A stretch of 32,215 nt of DNA. Source: a virus. Under the pieces are notes generated by a model. That model saw nothing but the letters and a program-made list of their open reading frames with translations, was not told the origin of the DNA and searched no databases. Position 1 is the first letter of the stretch, and every line of letters begins with the position of its first letter. The stretch spans positions 1 to 32,215 of IMG/VR virus record IMGVR_UViG_3300020205_002541. One strand, written 5' to 3'. Shown piece by piece: positions 1 through 31,450 of this stretch. The position numbers and the translations under genes were made by a program.

Positions 1-3000
1 ATAGTGTAACTCCGTTTGAGTTTAAAATAATCGGCGCGGTGACTACAACCTGTAAACCTTCTGTGACGCTATCTACGGCTAATCCAGAAATTTCAGGCTC
101 GAAACTGACTCCTAAACCGCTGCCATCTATTTTTAGACTGCTGTCATTTAAAATACCTATACCACTAGCATTAGTATATAGTGCACTATCTGCGCTTTTT
201 ATTTTTAAACTATTTGACTCTGCATCTACTTCAAGCCCACCAGTGCTAGATGGATTAATAGCCAAGCCAGAAGCATCTACAGTCAGTCCAGAGTTGGTAG
301 ATTTTTTTACAGAAAGACCGCTTTCTGTTGTTTCCAAGGATAAATCAGCCTTCTTGATCCCTAAGGCATCTGAATCTGTCTCTAGGCCACCTGTGCTAGA
401 TAAATTAACATCTAATGTCTTGTTGCCGTTTGAGTAGACCAAGCCGCTTCCAGCAGTCAACATTGTTGACGGGTCCGATATTGATTCAGTTATATTAAGA
501 GAAACCGTATCGTTTTGATGTATTAGCTGGCCGTTTGTATTAATCCAAAGTCCACTTTGAGATGTGCCTATTGGATTTGTAGTTTCTTTTGTAAAAGTAA
601 TTCCCTTTGGGTCTATTACACCAGTGACGCCGATATCGCCGTTTATTTGTAAAAGTTTCTGTCCAGGCGAACCGTTTATAGTTATAGGACTTCCATCATC
701 TATATCTATTATATTTCCGCCGTAGTATGCGTCTTGCAGATCTTCAACTGTACTCAAGGACGGAGTGAAGTATACTGCTGAGTTTCCATCCACTCTAAAA
801 GTTACAACATCGTCTTCTTCTAAGTCTCTAAATATTTGTATATCGTTAGATAAAGATCCTGTTGTTCCAGTTTCGCTGTAGTCGTCACCTAATCTTAATT
901 TTTGACCGTTTAGCCATACCTGTAGCTGACCACTTCCAACAACGAAGTTTTGAGTGGATGCATCTTCTCTACTGTCTTGTGGCAAGCTCATACTAGTGCC
1001 ATTAACAAATGGAGTATTAAACTGATACGTTGTTATTGCGCTGGGTACGCCTATCTTGCTCTCTTCGTATATGTTTGCAGCCGGCGTCGCATGATTATGT
1101 CTATGTAGCGCTCCGCTTCTTACCGAATACAACACTACAACATCTTGATCCGTAGGAACATTGGTTGTGTTAGTTATATAAAGTGCACCCGCGGCGTCTG
1201 TGTCTTGATAGGCGGCATTAGTTGTTGTAATAGTAAATACTTTAGCTGCATTTCTATTTATTCTAACCCATACACTTTGACCATTTGATACTGTTCGTAG
1301 TTCAGAACTTAAATCATTTATTGATCCACAGTCTATGCTGTTGTTAACGCTGCCGGGTATTAATATTTCAACTTCGCTATCGCTTGAGTTATAGGATATT
1401 AAACTATTTGCATATTTTATTCCGCCAACATCTTGAATAACTATATTTTTATTCTGACTTGTTTCGTAGTCATTTGATGTCCACGACGACGAGTTTCTAA
1501 TCTCATGTCCATCCCATGAGTAAACTGATGTGCCAGAAAATCTATAAAATAGTACTATTCTATTTTCTTTTAAAAGAAAAGAAGATCCAAGGCTTTGTAC
1601 TGTACATGCTGCAGGGGCGCCTGATTGTCTATCTATGTCACATACTAAAGCTTGATTTGCTGCTAGTGTAAAGCTAGAGCCAGTAGTTATAGATTGTTGT
1701 GTAGAACCAGGTTTTTCTATAATAATAGAACCATCTACAGTCACAATTTGATCGCCACCGGTGCTAGTGTTTCTATATGTAGCTCTACCTATTATCTTAG
1801 AGCCTCTATCTTGAACCCTGTCCGCCATCATTGCGGTTAATTTTGATATCCTTGTTGTTACACTGTCGTCAGGGTTAGAGTTGAAATCTTGATACCCATC
1901 TAGTGCATTATATCCATCTGGGGTTTTATAAACAGGGCTTGTCTGCGCCAGAGAATCCATACCTATAAATTTAAGTATGTTAAATGTATCGGGCTCGTTT
2001 ATATCTACTGTCTCGCCTTGAACAACTCTAGCTGCACCAAATTCAGTTCTTAAATTAATTCTTGCGCATGTTGCAGTCGCGTTTACTGTAGTTAGATCAG
2101 TAATTGAATTTGAGTCAATGCTAGAAGGGATTTGAAACTCTGTAGAGCTTCTGTTGTTTATTTGATATTTCTGATTGTTACCATATCCTGCTGCACCGTT
2201 TATAATTACAGTTTGATTTGATTCAAAATTGTGGTTTGCGGATTCTAATTGAAACCCATCATCGGTTGATCTAGATGATGTCTTAACTACGCCCCATCTT
2301 GCTGTTACAATGTCTTCATTAGACAAACCAGAATACTTAATAACAACACCAAGAGTCGATTCGACCTCAACTTGGTATGTCACATCATAATCGTCATCTG
2401 ATAGCGCTATTCTGTCGCCGTCATTAAGATCATGTGCGGTCTCAAAAGTAAGCTTTAGTGTTTCAGTGTTTACCTCAGACACTGTTGCTGTTTTAGAAAA
2501 ATTCGTTATGCTTTCTATTTTTTGAATAGTATCTGATCTGTTCGCTAACCAAAATAAATCGCCACCAGCTACAAAAAGATCAGAGCTGTTTCTATTGCTT
2601 CTTAAAATATCTTCGTCTTGATATTCACCCTTAGTGAACACAGCAGAATCTGTTACTGTTGGGCCAACATATACGCCAGATAGCTTTATGGATATTGCAT
2701 TTTCAGGAGATGTTGGATCTCCTGATGCGTTCAGCCCGTTATACAACTCTTCTACGCGAAGATACAGATTGTTGTCGTCTCCGTGCCTCTTTACCCAGTC
2801 TCCCTTTTTAAGATTTTCAAAAGAGCCAATGGTTCCATTTATATAGCTTTCACCATACTCAAACTCAACTGGAGAGTCTAATTCGTTTATCTGCTTTTCT
2901 CTTTCGAGCTTGACCCACATGATCTGATCATCTAATAAGTCTTTTCCAGAGCTATTAGATCTGATTATGATATCTCTAGGATCGTTCATTCTTCTGATTA

Positions 3001-3910
3001 CTATGTCTTCAGACCAAGATATTCGACCAGGGTTTGCTATGCTATGTGTCCAACTGCCTTTAGATTTAATACTTGTAGCAAGTGCGTCACCATGTATATT
3101 AGATAGATTTAAAGTTGGAGTAGATTCATACCAAAAAGTGGTTCCAGAAAGCTCTAAAAGCTTTGTCATTACCGCATCCATCCACTCTTTTAAAGTGTAG
3201 ATGTTTTGATCTCCACCTTGAAAAGAATTACTAGACGTGGAGTCGTTGATAGTTAAAAGTGGCTCATCTCTCTCATATATGGACTCGGGCAGGCTTCTAA
3301 ATGAAAACTTATTCAATGGGTTTGGGTTTGCGCCGCCGCTACCCAAGCGAAACATCATGTCTCTACAGTCTGTTATGCTTGTTATGATAGCATTTGCGCC
3401 TGTTTGTATCTTTGCTATGGGCACAGTCCCAGTTGGAAAAGTAGAAACCGACACATTTACGTTGATCTTCAATACAGATTGAGTGTTTACGCCTTGATTA
3501 AACTCTCCACCGTTGCCGCCGTTTAAATCTACATCAAAAAATGCCCTAGTGTCCTTGCCCTCTCCAGAGGATGAGAGTGTTAGATATATGTAGTTTATTG
3601 CATTGGCTCTTAGTATCGGCGATACTGGCTGTGATATTTCATTGCCCTCTGGTAAACCATAATAAAAACTACCAGAAGATGATTCAGTGTTATATAAAAC
3701 AGAATCTGCAACTCTTATTGAGACAGACGAAGTGTTTATGCAGCTTGGTGCATCTATTATGTCAAAACCCTTTAATATTAAAGGCGCGGACCCGACTAAA
3801 GACTTTATTAAGAATTTAAAGTCAGAGGCCGTATAAGAGCTCATAGACAGCAAATCTGGAAGATCTAATCGCTGTTGAGAGCCAATTAATAATCTACTTA
3901 ATACGGCCAC
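1..3910 (-). CDS. Long tail fibre protein, 3' end cut by the window
   Basis: An open frame of about 1303 codons from a GTG at 3908-3910 runs off the left edge without a stop. The GTG is chosen because GGGAG lies 6 nt upstream and no in-frame ATG is near it. The first 900 residues are strand-rich and unassigned (VAVLSRLLIGSQQRL at the start; IPLRANAINYIYLTL-style strands; one Asn/Ser-rich stretch). About 960-1050 carries LQVWLNGQKLRLGDDYSETG and ends VVTFRVDG, a pattern found in large-phage fibres. About 1083 onward has GLWINTNGQLIHQ, and from about 1150 the sequence is shaft-like, with repeats such as SSTGGLEVDA, SGLTVDASGLAI and SSLKIDGSGLGV. Probably the host-binding fibre, with the tip beyond the window. 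Confidence 0.75.
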   Translation of the reverse strand, partial: MAVLSRLLIGSQQRLDLPDLLSMSSYTASDFKFLIKSLVGSAPLILKGFDIIDAPSCINTSSVSIRVADSVLYNTESSSGSFYYGLPEGNEISQPVSPILRANAINYIYLTLSSSGEGKDTRAFFDVDLNGGNGGEFNQGVNTQSVLKINVNVSVSTFPTGTVPIAKIQTGANAIITSITDCRDMMFRLGSGGANPNPLNKFSFRSLPESIYERDEPLLTINDSTSSNSFQGGDQNIYTLKEWMDAVMTKLLELSGTTFWYESTPTLNLSNIHGDALATSIKSKGSWTHSIANPGRISWSEDIVIRRMNDPRDIIIRSNSSGKDLLDDQIMWVKLEREKQINELDSPVEFEYGESYINGTIGSFENLKKGDWVKRHGDDNNLYLRVEELYNGLNASGDPTSPENAISIKLSGVYVGPTVTDSAVFTKGEYQDEDILRSNRNSSDLFVAGGDLFWLANRSDTIQKIESITNFSKTATVSEVNTETLKLTFETAHDLNDGDRIALSDDDYDVTYQVEVESTLGVVIKYSGLSNEDIVTARWGVVKTSSRSTDDGFQLESANHNFESNQTVIINGAAGYGNNQKYQINNRSSTEFQIPSSIDSNSITDLTTVNATATCARINLRTEFGAARVVQGETVDINEPDTFNILKFIGMDSLAQTSPVYKTPDGYNALDGYQDFNSNPDDSVTTRISKLTAMMADRVQDRGSKIIGRATYRNTSTGGDQIVTVDGSIIIEKPGSTQQSITTGSSFTLAANQALVCDIDRQSGAPAACTVQSLGSSFLLKENRIVLFYRFSGTSVYSWDGHEIRNSSSWTSNDYETSQNKNIVIQDVGGIKYANSLISYNSSDSEVEILIPGSVNNSIDCGSINDLSSELRTVSNGQSVWVRINRNAAKVFTITTTNAAYQDTDAAGALYITNTTNVPTDQDVVVLYSVRSGALHRHNHATPAANIYEESKIGVPSAITTYQFNTPFVNGTSMSLPQDSREDASTQNFVVGSGQLQVWLNGQKLRLGDDYSETGTTGSLSNDIQIFRDLEEDDVVTFRVDGNSAVYFTPSLSTVEDLQDAYYGGNIIDIDDGSPITINGSPGQKLLQINGDIGVTGVIDPKGITFTKETTNPIGTSQSGLWINTNGQLIHQNDTVSLNITESISDPSTMLTAGSGLVYSNGNKTLDVNLSSTGGLETDSDALGIKKADLSLETTESGLSVKKSTNSGLTVDASGLAINPSSTGGLEVDAESNSLKIKSADSALYTNASGIGILNDSSLKIDGSGLGVSFEPEISGLAVDSVTEGLQVVVTAPIILNSNGVTL

Positions 3911-22417: not shown

Positions 22418-23300
22418 TAGAATACCTCATTTATATCTTCGCCAAAGTCTTCGCCATATATAGTTTTAGCGTGTGCCATCTGATCTTCCATCCATTGCCT
22501 GTCTTCTTCCGATGGCATCCACTTTTTGTCTTGCTTTTGATCTTGAGCGTCGTTGTGTTCTTCTTGATCTCGCTCTCGATCTTTAGCTTCTTCTTCAGCA
22601 GCCCAAGCCATGGCATCGTCTATTTTCTTCTGTTCTATCTTATCAGCTTCTTCTTTTGACTGATCTTTAATGGCGTTTTCTCGCTCCACTTTGTCGCGGA
22701 ACTCGTAATAAAGCTCTTCTAATGTGTAGGATAGTAAAATAGGATCTTTTAGTGGCCTATTATAGGTTTTAGACCACCAATGCTGTAGGAATCTTGTAAT
22801 TGATTTTTCGTTATCTAGTGACTCTCTTGCGTTTGCCTTTACGATCCGATCTATGCACGCGAAAGTCGAATTTGCATAGTCGGCGCTTAGTTTCCCTTTT
22901 CTTCACTCGCAGCAAGCTTATCGTTGCCAGTCTTTGCGGCATCTTCTTTTGCTTTTGCTGCTTTTTCTAGTTCTTTTCGCCAAGAGTCTGATTCTTTTTC
23001 AACGCGCTCGTATAGAGAAAAAAGAGCATCTTCATCTTCCATCATCAAACCGTTGCTCTGCTTCCACCACTCTGGACCATCTTTTATCTTAGTTCTTAGT
23101 GTGCTAAGTGCTACTGCTGTGCCTAGAAGGCCATTGGTTGGATTGGCCATATCTGCAAGTAGACGAGATTTTTCCAACTCTAGAGAGTATCTATCTGCTA
23201 CGCTTAGTCTGCATTTTATAGTGAAGTATCCTTCATATGTAAAACCAAGCTCTCCGTCGTGTTTGAAATAAAAAGTTCTTTCTTTTTTAGGCAGTTCCAT
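22417..23300 (-). CDS. Tail assembly chaperone, frameshifted long form (gpGT-like)
   Basis: A -1 slip at G GGA AAC (22890-22896) moves the ribosome into a frame that stays open for 157 codons, giving a product of 294 residues. The extension reads LSADYANSTF..., then a helical T-like domain with LQHWWSK, YNRPLKDPILLSYTLEELYY and an acidic, Gln/Lys-rich helical tail to EVF. The last 90 codons of this frame begin at an internal GTG (22689) without a Shine-Dalgarno sequence, so a separate gene there is unlikely. The long form is expected in small amounts. It should bridge the tape measure and the short form, as in lambda. Its stop TAA shares one base with the tape-measure ATG (TAATG), which couples the two. 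Confidence 0.85.
22846..22896 (-). promoter_or_regulatory. Programmed -1 frameshift signal: slippery site and bulged stem-loop
   Basis: The heptamer GGGAAAC (22890-22896) sits in the zero frame as G GGA AAC, followed by stop TAA. After a 6-nt spacer (TAAGCG), CCGACTATGCA (22873-22883) pairs with TGCATAG, a bulged A, and TCGG (22846-22857): 11 base pairs around a 15-nt loop. Slippery site, spacer length and stem are those of a standard bacterial -1 frameshift element. Confidence 0.9.
22887..23300 (-). CDS. Tail assembly chaperone, short form (gpG-like)
   Basis: A 137-residue protein in the slot between the tube and tape-measure genes, where tail chaperones of the lambda G/GT type lie. It is beta-rich at the N-terminus (ERTFYFKHDGELGFTYEGYF), then helical and charged, ending ...EEKGN. 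The stop overlaps the end of a frameshift site: the last codons read aaG GGA AAC TAA, a canonical slippery heptamer. The short form would be the major product, binding the tape measure and guiding tube assembly around it. The start has AGAGG 5 nt upstream and a TATAAATA late core before that. Identification rests on position, size and the frameshift signal together. Confidence 0.85.
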   Translation of the reverse strand: MELPKKERTFYFKHDGELGFTYEGYFTIKCRLSVADRYSLELEKSRLLADMANPTNGLLGTAVALSTLRTKIKDGPEWWKQSNGLMMEDEDALFSLYERVEKESDSWRKELEKAAKAKEDAAKTGNDKLAASEEKGN

Positions 23301-25353: not shown

Positions 25354-26529
25354 CTATTGCGATCTTAGCCAATCAATCACCTCAGACTGAGTGCCACTAA
25401 ACTGTGGAAGTCTAACACTAAGAGTTGCATATCGTTTGATGCGCCTCTTCACGCCATCTGTTAGTGTTCCATCGCGCAGCGACAAACGATGCCCAATCAT
25501 ACCTTCATCTTCATTTATGATGGCCGTAAAGCATCTAACGCCGTTTTGCGCCATAGTCTTAACGAACCTGGTTGCCTGCGTATTAATAACAACTAAGCTC
25601 TTATCTTTGGCTGTTAATGCTGCATCTAGTGCCTTATCGAAGCCTAAAGCATCCACATCGATGATGTTGAAGTTGTTGACCCGCTTAGATGCCCACGTTT
25701 TGCCAGAGCCAGATGGCCCACACAAAACGTATATTGATGGTTTCTTACTGGCCCACGCAACAGGATCTATTGAGTAGTCTATCTCATTGCCCCAAAGCTC
25801 TAGATATTTCAGTCCCTTGTTGTTGAAGAAGTTGCGCTTCCTATTGTTGGAGGCCAAGTGTTTTTGCTGGTTGTGCCAATAGTTACCATGCACGTCTAGG
25901 TACGTGTCTATCTCTGGGATATAGATGTCAACTGTGTAAAAGTCTTTTATAACCTGATTGTGGGCTAATGGGTAGGTTTGCTTTATCTTGTTTAAGACTT
26001 CGGTTTCTAACTTCGAAGTCTTTTCTGATTGCATCTTTGCTAAAGCTTTAGCGTGTGCAATTTTATTTTCTGGTAAAAGTCTAAGTTTCTTAAGAAGCTC
26101 TCCCCCATTATCGTCATTTATTTTTTGTTTTTCAGTTCTATTTTCAGGTTCGGTGTACCAGTTCATAGAGCACTTAACGGAGCAAAACTTATTTTCTCTT
26201 TTTAGGTGAGATTTGTGCTTCTGTAGCGATGTTTTACAGCACGCACACTTTACTGTAATCAAACCGCCTCTATAGTTAGGATTGTTTTGTCCTGATATAT
26301 TTTTAAAATAACATTTCTTGTGAAATCTAGGTGATTCTGCTTCACCTTTTGGGATTGGTACTATTTCGCCGCACACTTCGCAGTTATTAAGAGATCGACC
26401 GTTTTGTGTAAGAGCATCTGTCTTATATTGCTCTTTAGTGTATTCAGTGGAGCAATGTATTTTATAATGTCGGCCCATGAGTCCATTGAGTTGCTTGGTC
26501 TGTAGGTCGCAAAGGTGGCATTTGTACAT
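25354..26529 (-). CDS. Homing-endonuclease-like protein fused to a P-loop kinase-like domain
   Basis: A 391-residue protein that probably belongs to a mobile gene rather than the virion. It starts with a C2H2-like finger (C4, C7, H21, H25), then a second zinc site (C50, C53, H70, C73), the motif NPNYRGG at 83-89 common in phage homing endonucleases, and a third site (C95, C98, C116, C120). Residues about 175-252 look like a Vsr/EDxHD-type PD-(D/E)XK nuclease: E177, D201, then YLDVHGNYWH with D212 and H214, and YLELWGNEI. Residues 265-391 form a P-loop domain with Walker A GPSGSGKT (271-278) and a basic segment RR-IKRY that could be a kinase lid. It sits between sheath and tube genes, which are normally adjacent, and both of those are intact, so it is free-standing and not intron-borne. 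What the kinase part does is unknown. Confidence 0.8.
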   Translation of the reverse strand: MYKCHLCDLQTKQLNGLMGRHYKIHCSTEYTKEQYKTDALTQNGRSLNNCEVCGEIVPIPKGEAESPRFHKKCYFKNISGQNNPNYRGGLITVKCACCKTSLQKHKSHLKRENKFCSVKCSMNWYTEPENRTEKQKINDDNGGELLKKLRLLPENKIAHAKALAKMQSEKTSKLETEVLNKIKQTYPLAHNQVIKDFYTVDIYIPEIDTYLDVHGNYWHNQQKHLASNNRKRNFFNNKGLKYLELWGNEIDYSIDPVAWASKKPSIYVLCGPSGSGKTWASKRVNNFNIIDVDALGFDKALDAALTAKDKSLVVINTQATRFVKTMAQNGVRCFTAIINEDEGMIGHRLSLRDGTLTDGVKRRIKRYATLSVRLPQFSGTQSEVIDWLRSQ

Positions 26530-29830: not shown

Positions 29831-31450
29831 TTATGGTTGTTTGGCTATTTTTTTAACAACCACAGCTCTCATGTCTTTAACAAAGTTTTCTTTTTCCATA
29901 GATGTCCAGTCTGTTGCAAAGTCTATGGCTATGTGTCCACTTGGATGGACAACAACTCTTGGTTTTGATAGGTACATGTAATGTTGAGCATGAATTGCTA
30001 TAGGATTTTCTGGCGTGGAAGAGTATGCCTCAACCTTAGATGGGGTTTTGGTCTTTTTTTCTATAATATCTTGCAGCCGTGCGAGTTTGCTGTAAAGTTC
30101 GTCTATCTCTTTGCCGGCTTTTCTTGCTAAAGAGTTGTGCTTGTTTTGCGTCTCCGTAAGCTTTTCTTCTAGCTTATCAAATAGTTTTAATATCTTTTGC
30201 TCAATTTGTTGAAGATCTACGGCATTGCCATGCCTAATCTCTTCTCTTATATTGTGCATCTCGTCGTGTATGTCTGTTAAATTATACGACTTATAGTTGT
30301 CGGCAAGTTTACTTATGGCATCGTTTATTGTGTCGTCTGTTAGCTCTTCATCTGAATGAATCGTTAACTCTGGATTGTCTTCGGGGAGGTACCACTCAAA
30401 AACACTCATTACTTCTCCAGTTAGAGACGGCAAGGATCTATTGGAAAACTGATGAATCGTCTTAAGCCCATCGTCTATGTTCCCTGAATAAATATCGTTG
30501 GCGTGTTTTCTTACGTGTATGCGGTAGTCACCGAAATTAACTATTTTAGACTCGTCATCCTTCATGTCCTTGACAGCTTCTCTTAACATTCTATAAGCGC
30601 CATTGCCGACTAGTTTAAGTGCATCGCCATGCGTGAATTCATGAACTGCAGAATCTCTCTGTCCAGTTCTTATTATGTTTTTGTTCAACGACTCCTGCGC
30701 AATAAGCAATTTCAATGGTTTATTTTTATATTTAATAAGCGCTGTGTCTAAGTACGCCTTGAGTGAAGGATAGCAGCACGCACGCATGTCGTTTATGTCG
30801 ATATTGTCTATAGGATAGAAGCCTACGTCTTTAAGCTCTTCTGTTGAATGATGATTTGGCGTCTCTTTAAGTCTAACTAAGAAGGTCTTGTCATTGCCGA
30901 CTGTCTTTAATTCTTCTATATGATCAGTGCTTGAAAGAGAAACTCCAGTTTCTTCTTTTAATTCTCTTATGGCTGCGTCTTTTGCAGACTCGTTAGGCTC
31001 AATACCTCCACCTGGAATAGCCCACTGTCCTATTTCATTATCAAGGACACCATGGCGCCCAAATAATATTTCGCCTCTGTCGTTTACTACAACTATGCCC
31101 ACGCCGTTTTCTTTTGTCTTTTTAAGTGGTGTTGATTTTTTGTTTTTTGATTTCTTTCGCTCATGAGGTGCAACATTCTTAGATCTACCAATATCGTAAT
31201 CTTCGTGCGGTGATGCTTTGCCTTTGTTTTTATGACGCTCGTGGTGGGATTTCATGTTCTGACCATCCCATCTTCCACCTTTTAACTCTTTTCCCTGAGT
31301 TTCCGGAAGATCTTTATAGCTACCATCTAGATAGTAGCCGTTGGCTATATCTTTTGGCGGGCCTTTGTCGCCTCTTAGAGTGCTACGTTCCTTGCCGTTT
31401 TTGATGGCCATCATCATTCTATATTGTGCTTTACTTGTAAATGCTGGCAT
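29831..31450 (-). CDS. NUDIX hydrolase domain fused to a long coiled-coil protein
   Basis: A 539-residue multidomain protein. Residues 1-110 are basic and low in complexity, opening MPAFTSKAQYR, a style of N-terminus seen in phage structural-region proteins. Residues about 115-240 are a NUDIX domain: the box G-x5-E-x7-REUxEExGU is intact from G148 to V170 (REL KEE TGV at 162-170), so it is probably an active Mg-dependent pyrophosphohydrolase on nucleoside-diphosphate-X substrates. Residues about 240-390 are unassigned. Residues about 395-465 are strongly charged and helical, probably a coiled coil. The last 60 residues form a short beta-rich tail (PRVVVHPSGHIAIDF). An AAAGGG about 8 nt before the ATG supports the start. 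NUDIX enzymes are known from phages (T4 nudE), but one fused within the neck region suggests it could be virion-associated; that is inference, and the substrate is unknown. Confidence 0.8.
   Translation of the reverse strand: MPAFTSKAQYRMMMAIKNGKERSTLRGDKGPPKDIANGYYLDGSYKDLPETQGKELKGGRWDGQNMKSHHERHKNKGKASPHEDYDIGRSKNVAPHERKKSKNKKSTPLKKTKENGVGIVVVNDRGEILFGRHGVLDNEIGQWAIPGGGIEPNESAKDAAIRELKEETGVSLSSTDHIEELKTVGNDKTFLVRLKETPNHHSTEELKDVGFYPIDNIDINDMRACCYPSLKAYLDTALIKYKNKPLKLLIAQESLNKNIIRTGQRDSAVHEFTHGDALKLVGNGAYRMLREAVKDMKDDESKIVNFGDYRIHVRKHANDIYSGNIDDGLKTIHQFSNRSLPSLTGEVMSVFEWYLPEDNPELTIHSDEELTDDTINDAISKLADNYKSYNLTDIHDEMHNIREEIRHGNAVDLQQIEQKILKLFDKLEEKLTETQNKHNSLARKAGKEIDELYSKLARLQDIIEKKTKTPSKVEAYSSTPENPIAIHAQHYMYLSKPRVVVHPSGHIAIDFATDWTSMEKENFVKDMRAVVVKKIAKQP

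Follow-up and report, generated by a model that had tools for sequence, protein, structure and literature searches.

The window analysed here, the 32,215-base virus record IMGVR_UViG_3300020205_002541 (positions 1 to 32,215), very likely contains a tail assembly chaperone gene of the lambda G/GT type that is expressed by −1 programmed ribosomal frameshifting. Its relatives fall into two groups that share the same pair of overlapping reading frames. At the junction of the two frames one group has a slippery heptamer followed by a hairpin (slippery junctions), and in the other the second frame has a start codon inside the first (non-slippery junctions). We think it probable that these represent one family in which the mode of expression has switched essentially once, between a frameshift G-T fusion and an independently started, unfused T.

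Both frames of the pair are on the minus strand. The zero-frame gene (22887–23300) starts with an ATG at 23300 behind a Shine-Dalgarno-like AGAGG (23310–23306), and codes for a 137-residue, predicted G-like chaperone with identifiable relatives. The heptamer GGGAAAC (22896–22890) is at the end of this frame and in its phase (G_GGA_AAC), and the TAA stop codon (22889–22887) begins at the next base. A 6 nt spacer, TAAGCG (22889–22884), leads to a hairpin (22883–22846) in which 22883–22873 pair with 22857–22851 and 22849–22846 to give 11 bp (7 + 4) with A22850 bulged. Folding of the 45 nt following the heptamer gives this same stem as the structure of lowest energy (−15.7 kcal/mol, z −2.9), and we regard the hairpin, at its 6 nt spacing, as a putative stimulator of slippage. 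Heptamer, spacer and bulged stem are all as described in the original prediction, which was made from the letters of this DNA. A second in-phase heptamer that it did not mention, A_AAG_GGA, overlaps GGGAAAC and begins 3 nt upstream.

After a slip, the −1 frame (22890–22417) continues as a T-like extension of 157 codons to a TAA stop codon (22419–22417), and the predicted fusion has 137 + 157 = 294 residues. The last A of this stop codon is the A of the ATG of a 1014-residue frame (22417–19373). There is no ATG, GTG or TTG in the −1 frame within the overlap or in the 45 nt past the zero-frame stop. Because the −1 frame is open for just four codons upstream of the slip point, the slip must be at or very near the heptamer.

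For the zero-frame product the most likely role is that of a lambda G/GT-like tail assembly chaperone, which weak PHROG and fold matches and the gene order together suggest. PHROG families described as "tail assembly chaperone" were matched weakly by 10 of 66 members (best 4.9e-4) and by 6 of 66 (best 1.4e-3); the window's own zero-frame and −1 proteins have no match in PHROG or Pfam at E 0.001. The model of the 137-residue protein (pLDDT 90.5) has two strands, helices and a long C-terminal helix, and its Foldseek matches in BFVD include the chaperones of Bacillus phage JL (S5M8F1; 230 residues, 22% identity, 6.6e-4) and Lactobacillus phage 521B (172 residues, 14% identity, 1.8e-3). Comparison with 1000 PDB chains by VIA-align placed YqbN (3klu) and the HK97 chaperone (2ob9) at the top with Z 4.4 each, which is below the tool's clear level (4–6% identity, 87–88 residues at 4.2–4.7 Å). 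Nothing at E ≤ 0.001 was returned by a Foldseek search of the model against the PDB, and nothing convincing by a profile search of solved-structure sequences. The 157-residue T-like part is modelled as helical, with one long helix and no viral fold match at E ≤ 0.001, and the −1 frame represents a conserved protein across the relatives. The tail chaperone assignment of the original prediction is thus supported, weakly and indirectly, by the PHROG, BFVD and fold matches.

Upstream of the frame pair, on the minus strand, are a gene for the tail sheath and further structural genes. Among loci with at least 600 nt of flanking sequence, a large frame comes next in all 28 with a slippery junction and in 27 of the 32 with a non-slippery one; in the five that lack it, the longest frame starting there has 93–97 codons. 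The 1014-residue frame is probably the tape measure gene, an assignment made by position and length only, and it matches no library family at E ≤ 0.001. The 157-codon frame and the one-base overlap of its stop with the next start had been predicted correctly, and the description of that start as the tape measure start goes no further than position and length. Neither Rfam nor tRNA scanning of the window gave a hit.

Several other features of these genomes are noted. The nearest match to the sheath protein is in Myxococcus phage Mx1 (32%), and no chaperone pair is present among the annotated product names around the Mx1 sheath gene. A 539-residue protein (29831–31450) encoded among the structural genes of the window has a NUDIX domain (Pfam 3.8e-18) and a weak portal-family match, and Mx1 likewise has a NUDIX gene among those upstream of its sheath gene. 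Between the sheath and tail genes is a 391-residue protein (25354–26529) with weak AAA/kinase-like and homing-endonuclease-like matches; it may be an insert, as two relatives (L001 and L002) have no such frame after their 724–726 residue frame. The segment 1–4000 is not poor in open reading frames as had been considered, and a minus-strand frame of 1303 residues (2–3910), next to a gene with a baseplate match, continues past the left end of the record.

Relatives were collected by protein searches. The window's zero-frame protein matched two loci, and an alignment of these two matched 30, of which 24 have GGGAAAN in zero-frame phase. From a search with a −1-frame alignment the best 80 of 128 virus-contig matches were taken, and the same kind of query identified four loci in metagenome-assembled genomes. 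The window's −1 frame alone as a direct query found no relatives, and the zero-frame alignment found no match in genome contigs. DNA and protein searches of named phages showed no close relative, and Enterobacter phage phiT5282EW, with a single weak match (E 0.3), was not accepted as kin. A total of 117 loci, including the best 80 of 128, were scanned, with a zero-frame match in 116 and a second-frame match in 114. The second frame overlaps the first in −1 phase in all 114 two-frame loci of this sample, and we found no relatives that lack both a slippery site and an open −1 frame, which the original prediction had named as evidence against it. The three loci without a two-frame result are the window's own locus in the other orientation (L003), one that ends within the junction (L011), and a distant relative (L033, 6270–6500) in which, judged by the translations, the second frame is in +1 phase and has an in-frame ATG upstream. 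The L033 arrangement could reflect either a +1 frameshift or a separate start.

Merging of identical junctions left 67, or 68 distinct junctions with the window; near-copies such as L004 and L005 were kept, and as the junctions are related by descent the counts given below are not independent. The protein alignments of the first and second frames (A6 and A7) have 66 and 64 rows respectively, with L005 and L107 omitted from both and L006 and L027 also omitted for the second frame.

A zero-phase G_GGA_AAN or C_CCA_AAN is present in 31 of the 68 distinct junctions, the window included. Twenty-nine of these have GGGAAAN and two have CCCAAAC only (L086 and L116); in L114, GGGAAAN is accompanied by an overlapping CCCAAAG. 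Codons were counted from one match per junction, taking the most upstream first (and therefore CCCAAAG for L114). The last codon of the heptamer is AAC in 15, AAA in 12, and AAG and AAT in two each. The codon preceding GGGAAAN has G as its third base in 28 of 28 cases, and in the three instances where Pro (CCA) replaces Gly the preceding codon (D, D and S) ends in C; the background frequency of third-position G in the zero frame is 805 of 4165 codons. Because the third base is constant across codons for six amino acids (L, E, S, V, Q and K), it is the nucleotide run and not an amino acid that is kept. When the codons in the tails of the same genes were shuffled, zero-phase GGGAAAN or CCCAAAN occurred in 234 of 13,600 sequences (1.7%), compared with 31 of 68 real ones. 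The zero-frame stop directly follows the heptamer in 22 of the 31, the arrangement seen with TAA in the window, and is 3–21 nt further on in the other nine. In 29 of the 31, a stop codon that lies between a conserved Trp codon and the heptamer closes the −1 frame.

In all 31 slippery junctions the 45 nt that follow the heptamer contain a hairpin of −8 kcal/mol or lower (median z −3.0; z ≤ −1.5 in 28). The same 45 nt fold taken after the stop in non-slippery junctions reaches this level in 15 of 37 (median z −0.5), and 45 of 184 control windows do so (median z −0.1; Mann-Whitney p 2.6e-8). The stem sequences are unrelated between subgroups, for example GCCGAC/GTCGGC, GACGGAGAT/ATCTCCGTC and AAGAGGAGAG/CTCTCCTCTT. 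In an alignment of ten sequences from one tight subgroup a single stem pair of six shows a double change and the other five are invariant; formal covariation is thin, and the stronger argument is that different stems recur at this position. Shine-Dalgarno-like stretches before the heptamer are somewhat stronger, with a median of −3.7 compared with −1.5 elsewhere in the gene, although this comparison makes no correction for purine-rich composition or shared ancestry and we therefore do not claim a Shine-Dalgarno stimulator.

The remaining 37 distinct junctions have no zero-phase GGGAAAN or CCCAAAN. Some other X_XXY_YYZ is present in six. A_AAA_AAG, in five of the 37, was considered as a slip site and rejected, being a Lys-codon variant of AAG AAG with weak folds (−3.2 to −7.0 kcal/mol). 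Every one of the 37 has, at a single aligned position, a start codon in the −1 frame (36 ATG, one GTG), which is constructed from the last base of the codon before the conserved Trp and the first two bases of the TGG (NNA TGG). Examples are in L025 (6320–6390), L078 (2940–3016) and L092 (2940–3007), the 37 junctions being distributed among L024–L119. The second frame is open from the aligned start in 37 of 37 non-slippery junctions and in two of 31 slippery ones; one slippery junction (L028) has an ATG with an open frame at this position. Pairing of the upstream sequence with the anti-Shine-Dalgarno has a median of −6.2 kcal/mol in the non-slippery group and −2.2 kcal/mol in the slippery group, and is weaker than −3.5 kcal/mol in four of the 37.

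Codon usage at this position supports selection for the ATG. The codon before the conserved Trp ends in A in 36 of 37 non-slippery junctions, compared with 28%. Where that codon encodes Glu it is GAA in 22 of 22, compared with 237 of 424 elsewhere (p 2.8e-6), and the same Glu in the slippery relatives is GAA in four and GAG in ten (counted by eye; Fisher p 3.9e-6), both p values being too small in view of the relatedness of the rows. A few junctions carry both types of signal. One example is L028 (6290–6430; L029 is the same), in which an internal ATG with an open frame is found together with GGGAAAC and a perfect 10 bp stem; these two could represent an intermediate state. A second example is L002, where the heptamer is accompanied by an ATG 5 nt after the first base of the zero-frame stop, with a Shine-Dalgarno-like stretch (−6.3 kcal/mol).

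A tree built from both proteins in concatenation (271 columns, 68 rows) requires two changes of expression mode, compared with a mean of about 22.7 changes when modes are shuffled; the extra change is the slippery L114, which is on a long branch inside the non-slippery group. A second tree of 63 rows, from which the long-branch L032, L082, L094, L110 and L114 were omitted, has one mode change, with branch support of 98/92 and presence in 98% of 200 bootstrap trees. As this tree needs a single change, it argues for one switch between a frameshift fusion and an overlapping independent gene. The fusion lineage would be the one with the heptamer and hairpin and a second frame that is closed upstream; the other lineage would have lost, or never had, the slip signal, with T starting at the NNA TGG ATG inside the G gene behind a Shine-Dalgarno-like stretch. 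We consider this combined reading more probable than not. The tree is unrooted, and loss of frameshifting is argued only from its wide occurrence in other phages (PMC5009743).

Four other explanations for the window's junction were weighed. The internal starts in the relatives raise the question of whether the window too has two separate genes, the second using its own start codon or being re-initiated after the TAA; the 37 junctions with an aligned ATG or GTG, an open frame and, in most, a Shine-Dalgarno-like stretch are in its favor, as is the late ATG of L002, although that locus also has the heptamer. However, the window has no second-frame start in the overlap or the next 45 nt, and upstream of the heptamer its −1 frame is closed. 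The earliest start listed for that frame (GTG at 22689, of a 90-codon frame at 22689–22417) comes after its best-conserved block, and separate genes would leave both heptamer and hairpin unexplained. Separate genes are thus improbable here. The warning in the original prediction that an annotation as two genes would be wrong is supported for the window, where the second frame lacks a start. The 37 of 68 junctions without the slippery site, however, look like two overlapping genes, and listing two genes in those relatives would be correct. A smaller chance still is given to slippage that occurs mainly at A_AAG_GGA, 3 bases upstream, or in the P site upon arrival of the stop codon in the A site. 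The former site is in phase in the window, and a stop directly follows the heptamer in 22 of the 31 slippery junctions, but per-locus scans found AAAGGGA in zero phase in L114 only, whereas each of the 31 has GGGAAAN or CCCAAAN, by which the set is defined, and the more distant stops in nine of 31 indicate that a stop codon is not required.

Artifactual or transcriptional origins are the least plausible. Single-base insertions and deletions do occur in metagenome contigs, and an error in sequencing or assembly, or decay of the gene, might split what is really one frame, but the same −1 relation is present in all 114 two-frame loci on many contigs, and the signal is kept in 31 of 68 junctions, making this highly improbable. 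We assign an equally slight chance to transcriptional slippage at the A-rich stretch AAAAGGGAAAC; the slip site is purine-rich, but its longest run of A is four, which is short for polymerase slippage, and such slippage would need neither a hairpin nor zero-frame phase. Comparison of the junctions makes −1 programmed ribosomal frameshifting very likely, and with a slippery site, hairpin, phase and conserved −1 protein, and no second-frame start in the window, the frameshift cassette that was originally proposed is strongly supported.

Xu, Hendrix and Duda reportedly described in 2004 a conserved −1 frameshift in the tail genes of long-tailed dsDNA phages, and the frameshift cassette itself is of this known kind. 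As in lambda G/GT, a short frame and an overlapping −1 frame precede the presumed tape measure gene, an X_XXA_AAN heptamer is at the end of the first frame, and the zero-frame protein is about 140 residues long. The window differs in that its own proteins have no detectable sequence kinship with those of lambda, the phage is contractile-tailed as indicated by the sheath match, the zero-frame stop directly follows the heptamer, the hairpin is prominent, and part of the family lacks the heptamer. The haloarchaeal tailed virus HCTV-1, an archaeal siphovirus, has at its g-t junction a G_GGA_AAC heptamer identical to that of the window (PMC5009743).

Anatomy, conservation, phase and the lack of a second-frame start are observed directly in the sequences, and from these we infer slippage, its efficiency, the fusion protein and the chaperone role in the following scheme. 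Most ribosomes would read the zero frame and terminate at the TAA after G_GGA_AAC to give the 137-residue G-like protein, which is expected to be made as well as the fusion, the gene thus giving two products. The hairpin 6 nt downstream would hold ribosomes at the slippery site, where a minority of them would re-pair from GGA AAC to GGG AAA and continue in the −1 frame to give the 294-residue GT-like fusion. G_GGA_AAC is not the strongest slippery site for E. coli, which may not be the host. On the lambda model, binding of the tape measure would fall to the G part and recruitment of tail tube subunits to the T part, and both would be gone before the tail is completed.

What is new is the split of the relatives between two modes. 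No published description of such a switch was found in titles and abstracts, which does not prove its absence, and the 2004 work of Xu and colleagues was outside this search. The chaperone family is barely covered by PHROGs and Pfam, and automatic annotation is likely to split the window's frameshift gene. If the switch is real, the covalent G-T link used by lambda would be dispensable here. The relatives represent a natural experiment, in which a shared pair of protein parts with an unchanged overlapping phase is fused in one clade and apparently separate in its sister. What makes the fusion and its ratio important in tail assembly could be tested in a laboratory phage, by comparison of the two modes or by exchanging one for the other.
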